A stretch of 39,197 nt of DNA from Candidatus Undinarchaeales archaeon SRR5007147.bin71. Its GTDB lineage: Archaea; Undinarchaeota; Undinarchaeia; Undinarchaeales; Undinarchaeaceae. Position 1 is the stretch's first letter, and each line of letters opens with the position of its first letter. Both the position numbers and the translations under genes were made by a program. The stretch is from the NCBI GenBank assembly GCA_014189675.1, contig DVAE01000015.1, positions 1-39,197 on the forward strand, written 5' to 3'. This document shows positions 6,185-35,581 of the stretch, piece by piece. The notes under the pieces are model-generated. The model worked only from the letters and a program-made list of their open reading frames with translations, was not told where the DNA came from and did no database searches.

Positions 6185-8032
6185 ATGATAAAGACCCCGG
6201 AAAAGATGTGTAAGGTCTCGATTGCGGGGTCTAAGAAAGTTTTAGAAGATACCATACAAATAATGCACGAGAAAGGTACTGTGCATCTTGTGGACTATGC
6301 CATAACAAAGAGTGAAAAGGAAGGTGGTGTTTTTTCTATTGGAAACTCATTCGAACGGGCAGATGATCTTTCAATTGCTCTTGTAAAAGCTAGATCACTT
6401 ATGAGAACTCTTGGAGTTGAAAGAGTCTCTTCGGCGACTTCCCTGCAAGAGAGTGAAAAAATAGTTGAAAAAAGAATTGACTGGTTGCATTCTGTTATAT
6501 CTGGTCTTTTAGAGAGGAGGGAAGAAACTGGAGAAGAGTTAAGAAAAATTGAACGGGCGAGAGACGCTCTCCATTTCATTGAAATGCTTGGCGTAGATAT
6601 TGATATTCTGAAAGAGACTGAAGAACTTTCTATGTATAAGGGTTTTGTAAATAGCAATCCTGAAAATGTTTTAAAGAGTGTAAGTAAAAAGTTAGAGCTT
6701 TTTTCTGAAAAGGTCGGGAAAGAGATTGCATTTGTTTTGTTTATTGAAAAGGAGAAAGGTAATGAGGCTCTTGCAAGGTTGAAGACCTTGGAGTTCAGAG
6801 ATATTGAATTTCCAGGTAATTTTGAGAAATATGGAACACTCGCAAAGCTTGAAAAAACCGCTAAAAGTAGTGAACTGGAACTTATAGATTTGCAAAAAAA
6901 GATAGATAGGTTTAGGCGTGTTGAAGGAAAGTTCCTGCAAAATTCTGAATATAATTTGAAGAGATCAAGTGAAACGGCAGAAGCTCCGCTGAAGTTTGCA
7001 GTTAGTGATAATTCTTTTGTTGTAGAGGGATGGATACCGCAGAGGAAGTATTCTTCATTGGAAAAAACACTTGAGACAGAGCTTAAGGATAGAATTCATG
7101 TGGAATGTGAAGAGGCTTCGGATGAATTGGGGATGACTCCTCCGACTGAGCTACAGAATCCTGAACTGATTAATTCATTTGAGTTTTTTGTAGATTTATA
7201 CTCAAAACCAATCTATAAAGAGATTGATCCGACAAACTTTATTTTCCTTACATTTCCTCTGTTCTTTGGGTTTATTTTGGGAGATGTTGGATATGGAGTG
7301 ATTACACTTGCCTTGTTTTATGGTGCTAAGAAAATTCTGAAAGGCAAGGAAGCACATAGTCTGCTGAATGCTCTCATGTTAGCTTCATTTGCGACCATCA
7401 TATTTGGATTTATATTTGGGGAGTTTTTCGGATATGAGCCTTACCATCCTTTGCTAGCTAGGGCTCATGAAGTTAATATGATGTTGACTATATCTGTTGT
7501 TGTTGGAATAATTCATATTAATCTTGGATATTTTCTTGGGATGTTAAATGATTACAGGCAGAAAGGTGTTGGATATATGATTAAACACACAGGAAGTTGG
7601 CTTGGTTTTGAGATTGCGATACTTTTAGTTATTTTAGAAATATTTGGGAAGCTAAGTTTTGTGTATTCTACTTACTTAGTTTATGGAGCTCTTGCGGCCT
7701 CAGTAATTCTACTTTACATTGGACATGGTATTATTGGTATTATTGAAATTCCTTCAATACTAAGTAATATTTTATCTTATACAAGATTGTTTGCTGTTGG
7801 ATTGGCATCAGTAGCTTTGGCTATTATTGTTAACGACTTTGCAGGAGCCGCATTTAGCTCCGGTGGATTTGGATATGTGACGGGTGTTTTAACTTTGGTC
7901 GTCGGGCATACTATTAATATAGCGCTTGGAATTCTTGGCGGATTTTTGCAGTCTCTGAGATTGCACTATGTTGAGTTCTTCACAAAGTTCTATAAAGGAG
8001 GAGGAGAAGCTTATCTGCCCTTTGGAGATTAA
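6185..8032 (+). CDS. atpI: A-type ATP synthase subunit I
   Basis: 615 aa; cytoplasmic N-terminal half, membrane C-terminal half with 'SILSNILSYTRLFAVGLASVALAI'. Confidence 0.95.
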   Translation: MIKTPEKMCKVSIAGSKKVLEDTIQIMHEKGTVHLVDYAITKSEKEGGVFSIGNSFERADDLSIALVKARSLMRTLGVERVSSATSLQESEKIVEKRIDWLHSVISGLLERREETGEELRKIERARDALHFIEMLGVDIDILKETEELSMYKGFVNSNPENVLKSVSKKLELFSEKVGKEIAFVLFIEKEKGNEALARLKTLEFRDIEFPGNFEKYGTLAKLEKTAKSSELELIDLQKKIDRFRRVEGKFLQNSEYNLKRSSETAEAPLKFAVSDNSFVVEGWIPQRKYSSLEKTLETELKDRIHVECEEASDELGMTPPTELQNPELINSFEFFVDLYSKPIYKEIDPTNFIFLTFPLFFGFILGDVGYGVITLALFYGAKKILKGKEAHSLLNALMLASFATIIFGFIFGEFFGYEPYHPLLARAHEVNMMLTISVVVGIIHINLGYFLGMLNDYRQKGVGYMIKHTGSWLGFEIAILLVILEIFGKLSFVYSTYLVYGALAASVILLYIGHGIIGIIEIPSILSNILSYTRLFAVGLASVALAIIVNDFAGAAFSSGGFGYVTGVLTLVVGHTINIALGILGGFLQSLRLHYVEFFTKFYKGGGEAYLPFGD

Positions 8033-13415: not shown

Positions 13416-14030
13416 ATGGCTGAGGATATAAAACCAACTAGGTCTGAGTTAATAAAGCTTAAGCGAAAAATAAAACTAGCTAAAAATGGATATGAACTAC
13501 TGAAGAAGAAGAAAGACGGGCTTATACAGGAATTCTTTTCAATTTTAGATGAAGTAAGAAAGAATAGGGACGTTCTTGGTGGAATTCATCGAAAATCTAT
13601 AACTAGTCTTGAATTGAGCCGGGCCATGGATGGAACTCTGGCGGTCGAATCCACGGCATTCTCCGTTACAAAGAATCCTGAGATAAAAGTACAGACAAAA
13701 AATATAATGGGTGTTTCTGTTCCTGAGATTGAAATTATTCAAGGAGAAGTACTTGATGAACGGAATTATGGAATTATAGGAAGTTCTAGCTATGTAGACA
13801 CTGTTGTTGATGATTACCAGGAACTTCTTGAAAAAATTGTTCTTAGCGCTGAAATGGAAACCGCAATGAAAAGACTTCTTCTTGAGATAGAGAAGACTAG
13901 ACGGCGTGTCAGCGCATTGGAATATATTGTTATACCTAGGATGGAGGGGCAGGCGGAATTTATAAGAGCCCGGCTTGAAGAGCTAGAGAGAGAAAATTTA
14001 TTCAAGCTTAAGCTGATAAAGAAGAAGTAA
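13416..14030 (+). CDS. atpD: A-type ATP synthase subunit D
   Basis: 'PTRSELIKLKRKIKLAKNGYELLKKKKDGL', 'RRVSALEYIVIPRME'. Confidence 0.96.
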   Translation: MAEDIKPTRSELIKLKRKIKLAKNGYELLKKKKDGLIQEFFSILDEVRKNRDVLGGIHRKSITSLELSRAMDGTLAVESTAFSVTKNPEIKVQTKNIMGVSVPEIEIIQGEVLDERNYGIIGSSSYVDTVVDDYQELLEKIVLSAEMETAMKRLLLEIEKTRRRVSALEYIVIPRMEGQAEFIRARLEELERENLFKLKLIKKK

Positions 14031-17000
14031 ATTTATTCAAGGATTTTTGTTCTTTGACTCCGAAAAGTGACAATATATTTTTATCCAAGGCATTGATTTC
14101 CTGTTCAAGGTATGTTGATAGATTGTATTTTTTTATTAGATCTTTGGAGATACCGAGATATTTCTCTATGCTTCCTCGGTGAACAGTTAAGGTAAGATTT
14201 CCATCACAATTTCTGCAAGTTCCACTTAACGGAGGGCGACGGTATTTTGTGTTGCATTTTGTACATCTGACTTTTTGTTTTGAGAACTTTCTTAGATTTC
14301 CTTTTATGTCAGGAAGGAAATGGCTTTGGATTATTTTCTCAGCAACTGTATTTTCATTTACAGCAGATATTCTCTCAGCAAGATCCATTTGTTTTTCAAG
14401 TTTTTCTATCATCTGACCGGTAGAATATATATTAAAATGAACTCCACGACCAATATCTGATGTGTCGTGGGTAAAGCCCCATCCGGTGAAGGGGTTTTCA
14501 TCATTTACAACATCACGAACTCTCTTCATATTTACACTTGATGGGTCTGTAGTCCAGTTTGTAGATTCATAGAATTTGAGAGAGTATTCTTCAACGATAT
14601 CCAAATCGTAGACTTCGTCATCAATTTCCAATGGATTTAGTTCACTAGTTACGACAAGAGGAGCATCCATTCTTCCCCCTCGCCTGTCTGGAAGGAGTTC
14701 CCTGGAAAAATTCAGAAATGCATCCAGAAGAAGCATCACTGCGTCTTCATCACCATCACAATCTCGTCTTTTTGCATCGTGAAAACATGGATGGGCGTAT
14801 CCGACGCGTGCACTGGTGAAACCAATTACTCTACCTATAATTCCTGTTGATGTGTGAGGAGCTAGAGCTATTACATGACAGCCGACCATATCTTTGCCTG
14901 TTTTTGCATTGTAGTAAGGAGGGAGACCATAATATTTCACAAGGAGATCATCAACAAATTTAGAAATTCTGAGAAGATACTCTCCAGCAGGGTTGTCTTC
15001 ATGGTTTGATAGAACTATATCCTGGGGTTTCAATTCAATTTCCTGGGATGTATTCTTTATCTCTTTTCCAAAACGGTCCTGAGTATAGCCCAGCTCCTTG
15101 AGTTTTTTGAGAGAAAGTCCAATTTCATATGGAGTAAAGTGAGTCAAGGGTGCATTTGTACTGTCAAACCTTATTGTACCATCTTTGAAGGGATATACAT
15201 CATGGAGGGCTCTGAGCATTCCTTTTTCAAGTGGCTCAGGAATTTTGTTACGGCTACCCATTCCAAGAATCCCTTTTACTGGGGGAAGCTCCGGGTTTCC
15301 TATTTTATTAGCTGCCTTCTCAAAGATTGATTTTATATTGACCATCTTTCTTTCATGAGCAGTTGGAGGAATTTTACAAACAGGACATTTTTCTTTTTGT
15401 GTAGCTCTTTTACAGCGTGGGCAGGTTGCAATTAGCTCCGTTGATGAGTCGCAGACGGAGCATTTTGGATACATTTCAGAGCGGTTACAAGATCTGCAGT
15501 AGAATTTTGCAACATCCATAAGAACGCTTGGTGTTTTTTCGATTGTTTTTCTGAGGTCACGTATTCTTCCTTTTCTACCTCCTGTTGGAAATAAAGCATG
15601 GACTGCTGGAACCATTTTACGGGGTTTTGCTTTTTCAGGTCTCCCCATCCTTGCGCCAATTGTTGTTGGAATACGATCCATGATTTCGGTTTTGCATAGG
15701 TCATTTATGATTTTGAGAGAGCTTTTATGAGGAGAATTTTTGATATTCTCTGTGGTCTCTTTTCCAGGATTTATTTGATAACGAAGCGCTTCCGAGTGCT
15801 CGTTTATTACTATATTTTCACCAGAAATTTTGTGGAATACACAAAGCTCTTCAAGTAATATCTTTAGTTCTCGTGTGTTTTTTAGGATAATATCCCCTGA
15901 TTTAGGGGATTGCTCAAGAGCTGTTGAAAGATGACCTAATCCTTTTTTTGAAATATTTTTCCATAAGAAGATGTATTTAGGGTGGAGTGGGATTTTGTAT
16001 TTTTCAGATAATGAGCATGCTTCTTTGAATGAAGGAGTAGAGTACGGGCGTTTTACTGCTCGTGATTCTTCTTCTGGATTTTTTTCAAGTATTTGTTTAG
16101 CCCACCACTCTTCACAATAAGAAGCAGGAGGGAGTGGGTGGTTATTTTCTATAAAATCCCCAACAGATATTAGAAGATCTCCTAATTGGATTATTTTTGT
16201 TGTTTTATCTCTGAGTTCAATTGCTTCCTCTGTTGTATTTATTTGCAGGACTTCTCCTGAATCTAAAAGAACCGTCGGGCCGTTTATAGTATCACAGGGT
16301 GTAACTATTGCAGCCTTCCCTGGGAATTCCAATCTTATTTGAGTTCCAACTGCTATGAACTCATTGAGAATATACATTAAGGCTGGATTTACTGCAACTG
16401 CTGCATAACCTGTTGCACGGGTTCTTCCATATCTTAAGGTAAAGCCACCTTTTGAAGAAGGGAATGAGAAAACGGGACGACCTGCTGGTACTTCATTTAG
16501 GTATTTAGCGTGTTGAGGAGCGTCTTTTGGCTCCTCTAAAAGTTGTTTTGCCCAATCTTCTCCCTTATCTACAGCTTTATCAATTATTTTTCCGAGGCTT
16601 GCTGCATCTTCCTCAGTAATATCAGATATCCACTCGTGTTCTGGGATTTCAACTTCGATTTTTTTACTTGCTGCCTTTTTTTGAGCGAGAAGACCGTCAA
16701 TCCAACTCCAATCGAGGCCGAATTTTTTTTCAAGGGGCTTCAGGCGCTTGTGGAGTTTTGGAGCTTTTTGGGCTATTCCCTCCGCTAGGACTAGGCACAT
16801 ACCCCCTCTCAACCTGTTTGTTTCCACTCTAGGAAGATCACGATAATTTGAGACTTCTAGTTTTTCTGTTGGCTCACCATTGAGGCATATTGGAACATTT
16901 CTGATTATTGTCTCTATTTCACTTTCAGTGGGTTTGTATTGTAGGTGGACTCTGCGGTGGTACCAGTTAATTTCTTCAATATAGCGGCGAACTTCATCCT

Positions 17001-17505
17001 GGGTTGGTTTGAATTTACTAAGTCCTAGACATTTTCTTGTAAAGTCGGACATTACAACAGAAAGTGCTTCAGCGGTTCCCCCAGCTGCCCTTATTGGGCC
17101 GGCATAATAGACCGACAGATATTCTGTGTTGTCTGGATTTCTTCGTATGGTAACTTTTGCTATCCCTTCTAAAGGAGCTGCAACTGAACCCTGAGTCAGA
17201 TAAGCAAGAGATGCACGGATTGCATTGTCGGCAGCTATTTCACGGTCAGGTTCTAATTTTACCAATTCTTCTATAAGTTTGAAAGCTACTTCCTCTTCTA
17301 CTTCTGTGTTTTTTCTTATTTTCCTGATAAGGTCGGAAAGCCCATCAATTTGAAGAAGCCCCTCTACCTTTTCTTCTACATCTGTGGCTATGTATATCTC
17401 TGGTTCTTTTGAAAAATCCAATGCTGCATTCCTTGCTTTGGAAGCTATGTCAAACTCCTTCTGTGTTTGTTGCCTTATGGATTCTTTATATTCGAGTTGA
17501 TTCAT
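14008..17505 (-). CDS. polC: DNA polymerase D large subunit DP2
   Basis: 1165 aa; 'GPIRAAGGTAEALSVVM', 'FHDAKRRDCDGDEDAVMLLLDAFLNFSRELLPDRRGGRMDAPLV', zinc-binding Cys clusters; catalytic DCDGDED motif uninterrupted (no intein). Confidence 0.98.
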   Translation of the reverse strand: MNQLEYKESIRQQTQKEFDIASKARNAALDFSKEPEIYIATDVEEKVEGLLQIDGLSDLIRKIRKNTEVEEEVAFKLIEELVKLEPDREIAADNAIRASLAYLTQGSVAAPLEGIAKVTIRRNPDNTEYLSVYYAGPIRAAGGTAEALSVVMSDFTRKCLGLSKFKPTQDEVRRYIEEINWYHRRVHLQYKPTESEIETIIRNVPICLNGEPTEKLEVSNYRDLPRVETNRLRGGMCLVLAEGIAQKAPKLHKRLKPLEKKFGLDWSWIDGLLAQKKAASKKIEVEIPEHEWISDITEEDAASLGKIIDKAVDKGEDWAKQLLEEPKDAPQHAKYLNEVPAGRPVFSFPSSKGGFTLRYGRTRATGYAAVAVNPALMYILNEFIAVGTQIRLEFPGKAAIVTPCDTINGPTVLLDSGEVLQINTTEEAIELRDKTTKIIQLGDLLISVGDFIENNHPLPPASYCEEWWAKQILEKNPEEESRAVKRPYSTPSFKEACSLSEKYKIPLHPKYIFLWKNISKKGLGHLSTALEQSPKSGDIILKNTRELKILLEELCVFHKISGENIVINEHSEALRYQINPGKETTENIKNSPHKSSLKIINDLCKTEIMDRIPTTIGARMGRPEKAKPRKMVPAVHALFPTGGRKGRIRDLRKTIEKTPSVLMDVAKFYCRSCNRSEMYPKCSVCDSSTELIATCPRCKRATQKEKCPVCKIPPTAHERKMVNIKSIFEKAANKIGNPELPPVKGILGMGSRNKIPEPLEKGMLRALHDVYPFKDGTIRFDSTNAPLTHFTPYEIGLSLKKLKELGYTQDRFGKEIKNTSQEIELKPQDIVLSNHEDNPAGEYLLRISKFVDDLLVKYYGLPPYYNAKTGKDMVGCHVIALAPHTSTGIIGRVIGFTSARVGYAHPCFHDAKRRDCDGDEDAVMLLLDAFLNFSRELLPDRRGGRMDAPLVVTSELNPLEIDDEVYDLDIVEEYSLKFYESTNWTTDPSSVNMKRVRDVVNDENPFTGWGFTHDTSDIGRGVHFNIYSTGQMIEKLEKQMDLAERISAVNENTVAEKIIQSHFLPDIKGNLRKFSKQKVRCTKCNTKYRRPPLSGTCRNCDGNLTLTVHRGSIEKYLGISKDLIKKYNLSTYLEQEINALDKNILSLFGVKEQKSLNKFTSSLSA

Positions 17506-18949
17506 TTTTGTAAAAGTTTATTAGCTGCATTTCTCGGCTCTTCATATTTATTACAGGAAGATTTCCAGGGGTCGGTTCATGACCACATAGCTCTTGAAAA
17601 TCTGTTTTACCTTGCCAGGTACCGGAATTTAGCATTGTAACACCACGATAATTCATTGCTCCGTTTGAGTGAACATGACCTGTATGAAAAATATCTATGT
17701 CACTAGGAATTACCATACTATCTTGGCCGCTTGTTACTAGATCAGAACTGTAAATTGGGGATAAGTGCCTTTTTTTTAGTAGAGCAAGCATAACAATTTC
17801 TGGATGTTTATATCCTTCTTTGAAAGTTTTATCAGATGCAATTATTGTGTCTATACTCGTTCCATGGTAGAGGAGTGTATTGAGGCCCCCTCCATCCGAT
17901 GTGTGGATATTTACAAGTGAGGGGTTGCTAACCATAGTTATGTTGTTCAATTCATTAAGCTCAGGGGCAATATCTTTAGTCAATGGGGTTTGTGGTTGGG
18001 CGAGGTGTGTATAATCATGGTTTCCCGGACAAATAATTATCTCAATGTTTTCGGGAATTTTTGACAGGAGTTTGGCCGCTTCTGTATATTGTTTTGTGAT
18101 ATCTGTTTCATACAGGCCGTCTTTTTGGTTTGGATAAACACCAATACCATCAACGAGATCTCCAGCTATGAAAATGTAATTTATATTGTCCGTTATTTCT
18201 CTCTGCATATCACTTTCAACATCTGAATTAAACCACTCAAGAAGGTTTTTGAACTCTTTTCTGAGGAATTTTTTACTTCCAATATGTATATCTGAAAGAA
18301 ATGCTACATAGCTGGAATCTGAGAGTTTTTTCATGTGCCTCCCTGTTGGGAGATCTGGTTGGATTATGTTATTGGTAAAGAAAATATCATCACCCATACT
18401 TCCTTCAAGGGCAATGACTTCATCGAGAACAATAGATTCTGCTTGTTTATTTGCTTCAGGGCTTGTTGTTATTGTTTTTAGAACTCCTGTGGGATCTTCT
18501 AATTCCAATATGACGCTGTTTTTAGTTACTCTTTTATCAGAAACTATTCCAATTAAGCTACATTTTTCCCCCTTTGCCTTTTCAGCATGCGCAAGTGACA
18601 TAGTATTATTGGTGCGGGGAGAAAGAACTTTTTTGAAATGATTATATCTTGCTCTGAAGAAATCTGAGATTGTTTGTAAATCATCTACATAAGGGGTTTT
18701 TGTAAAATTTTGAATTATACTTACTTCTGTTTTGAATGGAGAGCCTATTTTTCTTTCTGAAATTGATTGTGTTTTGGTGAAGTGTGTTGTTGTTAAAAGA
18801 AATTCGTTTGCTTCCAGTTTTCGTATTGAATTTTCAAGCGCTTTTTTTGGATTTTTTTGTTCAGAAATTAACCTGATGGCATCTGTTGTTATCTGTAGGT
18901 CTTTTTCTATAACCAATCTTAGTAGGTCTTTCTGTAGTTGTATATTCAT
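17486..18949 (-). CDS. polB: DNA polymerase D small (exonuclease) subunit DP1
   Basis: Calcineurin-like motifs intact: 'LSDIHIGSK', 'AGDLVDGIGVYP', 'PGNHDYTHLAQPQTP', 'HTGHVHSNG'; immediately upstream of DP2 with overlapping ends. Confidence 0.97.
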   Translation of the reverse strand: MNIQLQKDLLRLVIEKDLQITTDAIRLISEQKNPKKALENSIRKLEANEFLLTTTHFTKTQSISERKIGSPFKTEVSIIQNFTKTPYVDDLQTISDFFRARYNHFKKVLSPRTNNTMSLAHAEKAKGEKCSLIGIVSDKRVTKNSVILELEDPTGVLKTITTSPEANKQAESIVLDEVIALEGSMGDDIFFTNNIIQPDLPTGRHMKKLSDSSYVAFLSDIHIGSKKFLRKEFKNLLEWFNSDVESDMQREITDNINYIFIAGDLVDGIGVYPNQKDGLYETDITKQYTEAAKLLSKIPENIEIIICPGNHDYTHLAQPQTPLTKDIAPELNELNNITMVSNPSLVNIHTSDGGGLNTLLYHGTSIDTIIASDKTFKEGYKHPEIVMLALLKKRHLSPIYSSDLVTSGQDSMVIPSDIDIFHTGHVHSNGAMNYRGVTMLNSGTWQGKTDFQELCGHEPTPGNLPVINMKSREMQLINFYKNESTRI

Positions 18950-18957
18950 AGTAGATC

Positions 18958-20151
18958 TCAGAGAAGCTCGCCACGGAGTATTTCGGATGTTTTTTCTAGG
19001 GCGACAGGAGTCATATCCAGTTTTATTTTTCTTGTTCTTCCATATCGTCCTTTGGAGACGACAAGGGAATTTATGACTCCCAACATGTCCAGTTCCGATA
19101 TTAAGTCGGAGACACGTCTCTGAGTTAGTGGCACAAGGCCTATTTGCTTGCAGAGGTTATGGTAGACTTCAAATACCTCCCCTGTAGCAACTTCGTTTTT
19201 GTTTAATTCTTTTAAGTATATTATGCTGTAGAGCACTATTTGTGACTGACGTGGTTGTGTTTTTACAATTTCAACAACACGATCAATATCTATTTTACGC
19301 ATTGCTTCGTCAACATGCTTCTCATTTACTTTTATGTCGACATTTCTTTCTGCAATTTCACACGCAACCCTGAGAAGGTCCAGTGCCCGTCTGACATCCC
19401 CATGTTCTTGGGCAGCCAGAGCTGAGCATTTTGCTATAGTTCCTTCACCAACAGAAGTAGGAGAAAGTGCGATTTTGGCTCTGTCTAGTAAAATATCCTG
19501 TATTTGAATTGCATTATAAGGAGGGAATACCAATTCCTCTTCAGAAAGGCTTGATTTTATTCTTGGATCAAGATTGTTTGTGAAATTTAAATCATTGGAA
19601 ATTCCGATAATACTTATTTTTGCGTTTGTGAGTTCGGTGTTTATCCTTGTTAAGTTATAAAGAACGTCTGTTTCGACCAGAGTATCTATTTCATCGAGAA
19701 CTAAAGTAAATACTCCACCTACTTTGTTAATTTCTCGAAGGAAAATTTTATATATTTCATCTGTTGGAAGTCCTGTTGCAGGAACTTCAACATCAATGAA
19801 ACTTAAGAAGCGTGCAAGAAGCCGATAAGGAGTGTTTATTTTCTCCATTTTACAATTCATATAAAGGGTTTTTAGTTGGGTTTTTTGTTTTGTGGCCTTT
19901 GATTCTAATTCTTGGCAGACAAATTTTGAAACAAGTGTTTTACCCGTACCTGTTTTACCATATATGAAAACATTAGAAGGTCTGTCGCCACGGAGACCTG
20001 GTGCAAGGATAGATGCGAGTTGGTTTATTTGTTCGTTTCTGTGTGGAACTGTGTCTGGTGTGTAGGCATCTTGTAAAGCTTGTTTTGAGAGGAAAAAGGA
20101 TTGTTTGCTAAGAAAGGAATCAAATAAATCTTCAAGTGTTTTTTGTTTCAT
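18958..20151 (-). CDS. cdc6: Orc1/Cdc6 origin-binding initiator
   Basis: 'NVFIYGKTGTGKT' Walker A, 'FTLVLDEIDTL' Walker B, C-terminal wHTH; start placed at internal ATG (MKQKTLEDLF). Confidence 0.96.
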   Translation of the reverse strand: MKQKTLEDLFDSFLSKQSFFLSKQALQDAYTPDTVPHRNEQINQLASILAPGLRGDRPSNVFIYGKTGTGKTLVSKFVCQELESKATKQKTQLKTLYMNCKMEKINTPYRLLARFLSFIDVEVPATGLPTDEIYKIFLREINKVGGVFTLVLDEIDTLVETDVLYNLTRINTELTNAKISIIGISNDLNFTNNLDPRIKSSLSEEELVFPPYNAIQIQDILLDRAKIALSPTSVGEGTIAKCSALAAQEHGDVRRALDLLRVACEIAERNVDIKVNEKHVDEAMRKIDIDRVVEIVKTQPRQSQIVLYSIIYLKELNKNEVATGEVFEVYHNLCKQIGLVPLTQRRVSDLISELDMLGVINSLVVSKGRYGRTRKIKLDMTPVALEKTSEILRGELL

Positions 20152-20210
20152 ACCAACCCACAATATTTTGCATAAGAAGTGGGGGTATAAATACGTTTCT
20201 GTGTTTTTAG

Positions 20211-20241
20211 AACCCACCCACCCCTTTATTTCCTGTGGAAC
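20211..20241 (-). repeat. ORB-like element 1
   Basis: Minus strand: GTTCCACAGGAAATAAAGGGGTGGGTGGGTT. Confidence 0.85.
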
Positions 20242-20420
20242 GGTGCTTTTAGGGGGCTGTGTTTTTTGTTTTGGGTTTATTTAAGTCTTGTTTATCTGTT
20301 TTGTAGTGTTTTTGTGTTGTTGTTCCTTTATTAAAAAGTAATTTACGCGTCTTTTTTGTTTTATTTTTTAAGTTGGGGTTTGGTTTGGTCTTGGTTTTTA
20401 TTTTGGGGGCTTTTTCCATT

Positions 20421-20442
20421 ATTCCATGTGAAATGGGGGGGT
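20421..20442 (+). repeat. ORB-like element 2
   Basis: ATTCCATGTGAAATGGGGGGGT. Confidence 0.75.
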
Positions 20443-20451
20443 ATTTTGGTT

Positions 20452-20477
20452 TTTTCCAGTGGAAGTTGAGGTTTTGG
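20452..20477 (+). repeat. ORB-like element 3 (mini-ORB core)
   Basis: Contains perfect core palindrome TTCCAGTGGAA at 20454-20464; G-rich tail degenerate. Confidence 0.7.
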
Positions 20478-20483
20478 TGTTGG

Positions 20484-20538
20484 TTTTATATATATAATAA
20501 TTAACCATATAGATAATAAATAAATAAATAAATAAAAC
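20484..20538. other. AT-rich putative duplex unwinding element
   Basis: 'ttttatatatataataattaaccatatagataataaataaataaataaataaaac' lies between ORB3 and ORB4; includes tandem AAAT units. Confidence 0.65.
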
Positions 20539-20614
20539 CAAAAGACTACGGACAAGGAATAAAAAAACAACAAAAACACACACAAAAAAAGAAAAACACA
20601 GAAAAGAAAGCAAA

Positions 20615-20636
20615 GTTCTATATGAAATAAAGGGGT
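20615..20636 (+). repeat. ORB-like element 4
   Basis: GTTCTATATGAAATAAAGGGGT; GAAATAAAGGGGT tail identical to the corresponding part of ORB1. Confidence 0.75.
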
Positions 20637-20659
20637 CTGGGACCTAAAAAACCAAACAA

Positions 20660-21139
20660 CTAACCATAGGCCTTATGTGGCCGCGAAACATCAGAATCAT
20701 CTACTTCATTTTTTCTTTCATCTTTGCCACCACTGACCCCTTTATTTGTATCACTTTCCTCAACAACTACCTTGACTCCTTCTTCGGGCTTTTCTTTATA
20801 TTTTAAACCAAGCACTCTCATAGCACTAAAAACCGCGTCCGGTATCTCAACAACAACACCTGGATCTAAGGAATAATATTTCCTTGTAGTTGTACTTCCC
20901 CAAGTATAATTTCCTTGTATTTTTTCTATTCCATATTCTTTAAATTCACCTTGCTGCACCCCCTTTTTTAAATGGTAGTAAATTTGCCGTGCTTCAAGCG
21001 GCTCAAAAGCCAGGAGATATATCTTATGTATTTCATAACCATAAGCGCAACCAAGCGCTCCAAGTATCTGCTTTATTTTCTCTCGTATTGGGCTCCCAAC
21101 AGGTCGGCCGCGACCATCTTTTTTCTTTTCTGCAACCAT
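20660..21139 (-). CDS. Origin-adjacent wHTH (PadR-like) DNA-binding protein
   Basis: 'GRGRPVGSPIREKIKQILGALGCAYGYEIHKIYLLAFEPLEARQIYYHLKKGVQQGEFKEY' winged-helix-like pattern; TATA-like 'AAAATATATAAAC' on the minus strand upstream. Confidence 0.65.
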   Translation of the reverse strand: MVAEKKKDGRGRPVGSPIREKIKQILGALGCAYGYEIHKIYLLAFEPLEARQIYYHLKKGVQQGEFKEYGIEKIQGNYTWGSTTTRKYYSLDPGVVVEIPDAVFSAMRVLGLKYKEKPEEGVKVVVEESDTNKGVSGGKDERKNEVDDSDVSRPHKAYG

Positions 21140-21309
21140 TATTGTCTATATAGATAATAATTAATAAAGTTTATATATTTTCCTAAACCCCACTCCAAAC
21201 ATATTAATAAGCCAACCATCATTAATCTAGCCTGAATTTGAAACCATAACACAGTTAGATATCAAACCATAAAACAAGTTAAACTTTTTGTGGATCAGAT
21301 TAAATAAAA

Positions 21310-25705: not shown

Positions 25706-26176
25706 ATGGGAGTCAGGGCGCTATTAGGTGGAATTTCCAAAAAAATAAAAAGTCGATTTTCCGACGAAGACGATTTAGAAGATGAGCTTGGATCAGACGA
25801 AGATCTTGATGATGATTTATCTGAAGACGAAGAAGATGAGGAAGAAGATTTAGACGACTTAAACGAAAAACCAGAGCCCTCCCCAACAAGTCCTCCCTCT
25901 ACAAAACCACCTGTTTCTGAAATCCCCTTAACTCCAGCCCCACAAGAGCAGAAAGTCTCCTCGGCTCCACATGATTCTGGAAAAATATCAGCGGAGTTGG
26001 CAACCATAAAGACTAAAATAGACTTACTAGAGTCCCACCTCCAAAATATAGAAAGCAAAGAAGCACTTTACAAATCAGAGGCTGATAGATATATGCAGTA
26101 TCTCACATATATCAGCGACAAACTTGACAACTTGGCGAGAGAGCATGCCGAACTTGAAAGACTCATCCGTCAATAA
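25706..26176 (+). CDS. Hyperacidic linker plus coiled-coil hypothetical protein
   Basis: 156 aa; D/E-rich block then P/S linker then coiled coil 'ELATIKTKIDLLESHLQNIE...LDNLAREHAELERLIRQ'. Confidence 0.7.
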   Translation: MGVRALLGGISKKIKSRFSDEDDLEDELGSDEDLDDDLSEDEEDEEEDLDDLNEKPEPSPTSPPSTKPPVSEIPLTPAPQEQKVSSAPHDSGKISAELATIKTKIDLLESHLQNIESKEALYKSEADRYMQYLTYISDKLDNLAREHAELERLIRQ

Positions 26177-34908: not shown

Positions 34909-34932
34909 GTCACCTTACATGTCACCTTACAT
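34909..34932 (+). repeat. Tandem 12-bp repeat upstream of wHTH gene promoter
   Basis: GTCACCTTACAT x2, followed about 10-15 nt later by TATA-like 'atatatttatat'. Confidence 0.8.
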
Positions 34933-34975
34933 AATATCCCCAATATATTTATATGATAAACCGCTAGGCTTAAGC

Positions 34976-35581
34976 ATGGGACTATTCGATCTCCTCAGGC
35001 AAAAAAAGAAGAAATCCGTAAAGAAAGCGTCAAGTAAAGGGAAGACCCGTAAGCCGTCACGTCAAAAGCGTCTCCAGACTAAGGCGACACAAAAACCACT
35101 ACAGTCTCGCCAGCTATCGAAAAAAAGAGCAAATCTTGTCGTAATAGATCCAAGAATAGAGGCAAAAACCGAAATAGAAGATCCACTTATCTCAATTTCT
35201 CGGCAACTCACAAAAATCCAGGACGCTCTCGAAAAAAGCCACAGTACAATGCAAAGCGGTATGCAGAGTCTCAGAGACGATCATCACACAATCATAGAAC
35301 GGCAGGTTACGCCAGATAATGTAGCTCAGGCTTTCGAAAACCGCAAACACGAACTTGAACAACAAAAAGAAAATATAGAAGGTGAACTGGACATACTTGA
35401 AATTGATCAGAAAATACTTGATTCTCTCACTGAAAAAAAGCTTCGCAGCATAACGATTTCCAAAAACCTAAGCCTCTCCAGACAGTACACTGCCTCAAGA
35501 CTCTCCCACTTAATAGATTCTGGCTTTGTAAAGCGCACTAAGCGCGGCAGAAGTGTATACTACTCACTAATTACTTCGTAA
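34976..35581 (+). CDS. Coiled-coil protein with C-terminal winged helix
   Basis: Basic N-term, central helical region, C-term 'ITISKNLSLSRQYTASRLSHLIDSGFVKRTKRGRSVYYSLI' MarR/ArsR-like wHTH; start likely ATG 34976. Confidence 0.72.
   Translation: MGLFDLLRQKKKKSVKKASSKGKTRKPSRQKRLQTKATQKPLQSRQLSKKRANLVVIDPRIEAKTEIEDPLISISRQLTKIQDALEKSHSTMQSGMQSLRDDHHTIIERQVTPDNVAQAFENRKHELEQQKENIEGELDILEIDQKILDSLTEKKLRSITISKNLSLSRQYTASRLSHLIDSGFVKRTKRGRSVYYSLITS

Follow-up and report, generated by a model that had tools for sequence, protein, structure and literature searches.

A probable Orc1/Cdc6-ORB replication origin in Undinarchaeota, with a conserved palindrome in its candidate unwinding element

The 508 bp gap between the orc1/cdc6 gene and a winged-helix gene of an Undinarchaeon is very probably its chromosomal replication origin, of the Orc1/Cdc6-ORB kind. 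This call rests on an array of ORB sites beside the only Cdc6 of the assembly, on a replication-type skew switch, seen in several genera, that falls at an AT-rich element, and on a layout shared with other DPANN archaea. The location of the gap, its ORB array, its linkage to cdc6 and the strand switch are read directly from the DNA. The features of an Orc1/Cdc6-ORB origin found at the locus were an ORB cluster, an adjacent cdc6, an ORB-flanked AT-rich element, conservation and a strand switch. An origin had already been proposed here from the ORB-like sequences and their gene neighbours (the original prediction, below); the conserved palindrome in the candidate duplex unwinding element (DUE), the winged-helix neighbour and the inverted skew described here go beyond its observations. 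No mapped DPANN origin was found in the literature searched, and the gap offers an uncultured phylum a precisely located origin that can be tested. A second origin may lie in the missing part of the genome, as all genomes of the phylum used here are draft MAGs.

ORB array and gene neighbourhood

The window, that is the whole stretch of 39,197 bp that was analysed, is the entire contig C38 of an archaeal assembly of 624 kb in 39 contigs, 83% complete. The genome belongs to the phylum Undinarchaeota (described in PMC7414124), for which six genomes were sampled, and its closest named records are ARS1358, UBA543, S016 bin.121 and Ca. Naiadarchaeum limnaeum. On the minus strand, the winged-helix gene, the gap, cdc6, DP1 and DP2 follow one another (Table 1). 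Family matches bore out the cdc6-DP1-DP2 cluster of the original prediction in all three genes. The parallel that it had drawn with Thermococcales holds for the cdc6/PolD layout as an analogy, but not for the lineage, the genome being undinarchaeal. Rfam and tRNA searches of the window returned no match. Elsewhere in the window, the product of positions 25706-26176 is coiled-coil-like and weakly similar to SMC (E=7e-4, far short of the cut-off), and that of positions 34919-35581 is weakly similar to winged-helix domains (RuvB_C/HTH_45, E about 0.006-0.01).

Table 1. Features of the candidate origin and of its neighbourhood (window coordinates).
Feature	Sequence	Position	Strand	Remarks
DNA polymerase D large subunit DP2		14008-17505	minus	DP1/DP2 family matches, E down to 1e-118
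DNA polymerase D small subunit DP1		17486-18949	minus	family match confirmed
orc1/cdc6 initiator gene		18958-20151	minus	397 aa; Cdc6_C E=8e-31; sole Cdc6_C match in assembly
Origin region		20152-20659 (508 bp)	.	cdc6-winged-helix gap; called from ORB cluster, AT-rich element and skew switch
ORB0, weak ORB-like site		20168-20188	plus	11/17; overlaps cdc6 TATA region
Likely cdc6 TATA box	within TATTTATAC	20185-20193	minus	read from the sequence; lies about 35-40 bp ahead of the ATG (20151)
ORB1	TTCCACAGGAAATAAAGGGGT	20220-20240	minus	17/17 consensus positions; followed by GGGTGGG; conserved in 5/5 Undinarchaeota with cdc6
ORB2	TTCCATGTGAAATGGGGGGGT	20422-20442	plus	15/17
ORB3	TTCCAGTGGAAGTTGAGGTTT	20454-20474	plus	13/17; mini-ORB with palindromic core and decayed G-run
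AT-rich candidate DUE		20484-20538	.	between ORB3 and ORB4; skew switch point
Conserved DUE core	TTATTTATTATCTATATGG	20505-20523	minus	part of an imperfect palindrome, TTTTCTATATAGAAAA-like
ORB4	TTCTATATGAAATAAAGGGGT	20616-20636	plus	16/17
PadR-like winged-helix protein, candidate palindrome binder		20660-21139	minus	159 aa; origin-proximal in all 5 Undinarchaeota with cdc6
Second palindrome copy	ATTATCTATATAGACAAT	21141-21164	minus	between TATA box and start codon of the winged-helix gene

ORB sites were scored at 17 positions of the consensus TTCCANNNGAAAYNAAGGGGT. All four ORB-like sequences of the original prediction were present at their places, the outermost two indeed pointing outward, and the AT-rich stretch was found between ORB3 and ORB4 as described. 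The inventory was nevertheless incomplete, since a fifth and weaker site, ORB0, had been missed. The ORB0 position scores 12-13/17 in the related genomes G001, G003, G004 and G005, and a promoter-proximal ORB of the same orientation recurs in other DPANN. Read toward cdc6, the array runs ORB4 (pointing away), DUE, ORB3, ORB2, ORB1 (pointing toward cdc6) and ORB0 at the promoter; among ORB1-ORB4, ORB1 alone opposes the direction shared by the other three.

Four sites scoring at least 12/17 were counted in the gap, versus a mean of 0.10 and a maximum of 2 in 300 shuffles. A whole-genome ORB search, which had been proposed as a check, was run with TTCCANNNGAAANNAAGGGGT on both strands of the 624 kb assembly. 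With up to three mismatches it gave 8 matches, and the reversed control gave 3. The exact match, the one-mismatch match and one of the two matches with two mismatches all fell within a 417 bp stretch of this gap, and the scan revealed no second ORB cluster in the assembly. Within the window alone, a simple count of the ORB pattern is weak (3 matches versus 0.85 expected); the case for the array is carried by clustering and conservation. The array is kept in all five Undinarchaeota genomes with cdc6 (the source genome, G001, G003, G004 and G005). The congener G001 has the same array, with ORB3 conserved as TTCCAGTGGAAGTTGGGG, and G003, G004 and G005, whose Cdc6 proteins are 63-67% identical, keep the plan with different spacing. 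The ORB-AT-ORB-cdc6 layout also recurs in other DPANN archaea. An archaeal cdc6 that shares 56% identity with the query lies on a contig titled Planctomycetota bacterium (L064, QNBZ01000113.1), a probable binning error in its MAG.

From Sulfolobus and Pyrococcus we infer the steps of binding, melting and firing. Orc1/Cdc6 made from the adjacent gene would bind ORB1-ORB4 and ORB0, then distort and melt the AT-rich element, where MCM would be loaded, and forks would depart both ways. With ORB0 placed at the cdc6 promoter, Cdc6 could also repress its own gene.

Strand asymmetry around the AT-rich element

Computing the skew had likewise been proposed as a check. A changepoint test on third-codon and intergenic skew (2-lnL intervals) placed a sharp switch on the AT-rich element, with the best changepoint of the window at 20483 (interval 20476-20641, lnL gain 277). 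For G001 it was at 35195 (35023-35550, lnL gain 597) and for G005 at 19538 (19409-19578, lnL gain 600). The DUE core lies inside the interval in all three genomes (at 20505, 35059 and 19438, respectively); in G003 and G004, whose contigs are short on one side, the changepoint is roughly 50-400 bp past the core. On the plus strand of the window, third-codon GC skew was +0.44/+0.25 on the left versus -0.29/-0.46 on the right for the two gene orientations, and genes of both orientations switch in G001 and G005 as well. Therefore, it is the side of replication, not transcription, that sets the skew. Around the DUE core, the keto content of the non-coding gap was 0.71 on the left and 0.24 on the right in the window, 0.68 and 0.23 in G001; the other relatives show less of this asymmetry, G004 and G005 only weakly. 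On either side of the origin the majority of genes face it (window 1-39197; G001 contig C6), including an A-type ATP synthase operon on the left, so that transcription would be head-on to the forks.

The Undinarchaeal half-steps of -0.28 to -0.43 (z -16 to -21) stand clearly apart from those of 67 other archaeal cdc6 loci, among which the biggest was 0.17. In G001, whose contigs were ordered by means of congener contigs, the skew is about 0.55 close to the origin, has dropped to about 0.3 by 30-50 kb, and is about 0.16 at 60-70 kb. It fades within about 100 kb, and in the distal contigs, of which about half were sampled by stretches, it is near zero and shows no comparable opposite switch. Its polarity is inverted, the reverse of the usual bacterial rule. 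Inverse asymmetries have been described as frequent in archaea and ascribed to origin relocation (PMC3269017); in Haloferax volcanii, third-codon skews are reported to run counter to the gene strand bias (PMC12999951). A strong inverted asymmetry centred on the DUE would make a clean system for studying the causes of archaeal strand biases.

The relocation explanation (PMC3269017), applied here, would have a real origin moved into a former terminus, with the inverted skew as a fossil. It predicts the right polarity, but a fossil skew should be blurred and misaligned, whereas in three genomes of two families (window, G001, G005) the observed switch coincides sharply with the DUE. Moreover, the asymmetry reaches into the non-coding gap up to the DUE (window and G001) and peaks at the origin. 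These observations speak for a skew that is generated now and make a fossil improbable.

The region might instead be merely an autoregulated cdc6 promoter, with replication starting elsewhere or at dispersed sites. ORB0 and ORB1 do flank the cdc6 TATA box, and origin-independent replication exists in archaea, Thermococcus kodakarensis being able to replicate without Cdc6 (PMC5663688). We consider this reading very improbable, because it leaves unexplained a skew switch that extends over tens of kilobases and breaks at the AT-rich element, as well as an ORB 450 bp upstream, past the DUE. Around bacterial termini, G-rich strands and most genes point inward from both sides. That the locus is a terminus, with its skew positive on the left and negative on the right, and with the ATP synthase operon and most right-hand genes facing inward, is most improbable, given that the initiator gene and the sole ORB cluster are located here, that the skew peaks here while the distal contigs sampled revealed no opposite switch of comparable size, and that inverse asymmetries are described as common in archaea (PMC3269017).

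A palindrome at the DUE and at the winged-helix gene

In each of the five Undinarchaeota genomes with cdc6, the exact sequence TTATTTATTATCTWTATRG has a single occurrence, which lies upstream of cdc6 (the DUE core is at -749 in G005). In the source genome, G001, G003, G004 and G005, the palindrome of which it is part also stands directly before the start codon of the winged-helix gene. The same arrangement is present in distant DPANN, namely Ca. Jingweiarchaeum (L101) and Dive96 (L090), and in some Woesearchaeota; several other Woesearchaeota have no palindrome before this gene. In L101 and L090, the winged-helix gene is just upstream of cdc6 and the palindrome lies in the AT-rich origin. Palindromes between ORBs were also found in one DPANN family (L254, L255, L257, L259) and in G104 (L258).

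The palindrome pattern TTWCYATATRGWAA, with at most one mismatch, was scanned over 74 other DPANN cdc6 loci. As it had been refined by eye on the lineages that suggested it, only these 74 loci and their genomes are an independent test. There were 14 matches in the 500 bp preceding cdc6, versus 6 in about 2,105 other 500-bp bins of the loci. Inspection of twelve DPANN loci revealed ORBs of opposite orientation with the palindrome between them, the latter matched by a looser scan only in L098 and L118. Palindrome-like sites also occur away from origins. Two close copies around 7320-7400 of G003:C44 (L278) suggest further sites for the same protein.

The winged-helix neighbour matched no Pfam or NCBIfam family at E<=0.1, PadR included, and a PDB sequence search with its profile found no credible relative. 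Its AlphaFold model is confident over about residues 12-110 (blocks of 11-120 at mean pLDDT 73-93), and the best Foldseek matches were PadR regulators, including operator-bound PadR (E 4e-4, with a modest query TM of 0.33). A gene of this family is found beside cdc6 in several other, separate DPANN lineages. The idea that it adjoins cdc6 wherever the palindrome is present was ruled out, as the Woesearchaeota concerned have the gene elsewhere in the genome.

Among 15 palindrome-positive genomes, 13 had a member of the winged-helix family, against a single one among 19 palindrome-negative genomes (uncorrected Fisher p=1.4e-6), which makes this family the likely binder of the palindrome. The protein is also present in G021, where no good palindrome is found at cdc6. 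Along the Cdc6 tree the two traits change just 3-4 times. Phylogenetic correction leaves 2-3 independent contrasts, which agree in most pairings and are on average never discordant; since these are too few for significance, we rate the link between palindrome and protein as no more than likely.

Candidate role of the palindrome and comparison with known systems

The nearest parallel found is ucm, a motif of Sulfolobus origins that is bound by UBP and required for firing (PMC12141716). At oriC1 of Sulfolobus, as here, an AT-rich element with ORBs on either side harbours a short conserved motif other than the ORB, also present elsewhere on the chromosome (PMC12141716). However, ucm reads ATTATACAAAC in the oligonucleotides of PMC12141716, unlike the Undinarchaeal TTTTCTATATAGAAAA, and that oligonucleotide sequence is absent from the Undinarchaeal DUE. 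UBP is a small dimer that contacts DNA via beta-hairpins (PMC12141716), whereas the Undinarchaeal candidate is PadR-like. The relation is thus one of analogy, not of membership, as both sequence and protein class differ. The oriC of Pyrococcus and Thermococcus is similarly a single cdc6-adjacent origin with ORBs, an AT-rich element and replication genes nearby (PMC4010727). It belongs to a different phylum, and the strong inverted skew, the DUE palindrome and the PadR-like neighbour set the Undinarchaeal locus apart from it. Haloarchaeal oriC1 shares ORBs with an extended 3' G-run, which in Undinarchaeal ORB1 is GGGGTGGGTGGG, but haloarchaea have multiple Cdc6 paralogues, and a term search of PMC4010727 found no such palindrome. 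To PadR-family regulators (5x11 and others) the neighbour is linked by the modest match of its predicted fold and by an operator-like palindrome at its own start codon; it differs from them in having no Pfam or NCBIfam match and in being linked to origins in several DPANN lineages.

We lean towards a model in which a PadR-like dimer would bind both the DUE palindrome and the palindrome at its own promoter, and help to organise the origin in the manner of UBP on ucm. For a PadR-like dimer, a palindromic site in front of its own gene is nothing new; what stands out is the copy at the origin. The model names a specific protein and a DNA site for a candidate non-Cdc6 origin factor, for which the precedent found is Sulfolobus UBP.

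It is also possible, though we find it less convincing, that the palindrome is an ordinary PadR-type operator for cdc6 or for the winged-helix gene, with no part in initiation. PadR proteins, the best fold matches, are repressors, and the copies at the winged-helix start codon and outside origins would fit such a function. However, the origin copy of the window is about 354-372 bp from the cdc6 start, past three ORBs and inside the AT-rich element, and in independent DPANN the palindromes lie between outward ORBs, not at a promoter. Alternatively, the palindrome could be an origin element bound by another protein, its co-occurrence with the winged-helix family reflecting shared ancestry. The small number of independent contrasts leaves room for this, and in L084 and L128 the palindrome is present with the protein undetected. 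We nonetheless regard it as rather unlikely, because palindrome and protein are jointly absent in the L067/L096/L126 branch within Woesearchaeota, because L104, the sole palindrome-negative genome with the protein, carries the near-palindrome TTTTCAATATTGAA, and because the protein adjoins cdc6 in separate lineages.

More tentatively than for the Undinarchaeon itself, we suggest that many DPANN may have origins of the form ORB, palindrome, ORB, cdc6, where a dedicated PadR-like protein, whose gene adjoins cdc6 in several lineages, would bind the palindrome of the unwinding element and help initiation. If true, it would be a second, previously undescribed origin-binding factor, outside Sulfolobales.

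In G104 (L258:1003-1749), G064 (L259:1249-1746) and their kin, the origin-linked winged-helix domain is located behind another domain in one open frame beside cdc6. In G104 the preceding domain is similar to nucleotidyltransferases of the cytidylyltransferase-like kind (PF01467, E=0.0012, a match that misses the curated cut-off).
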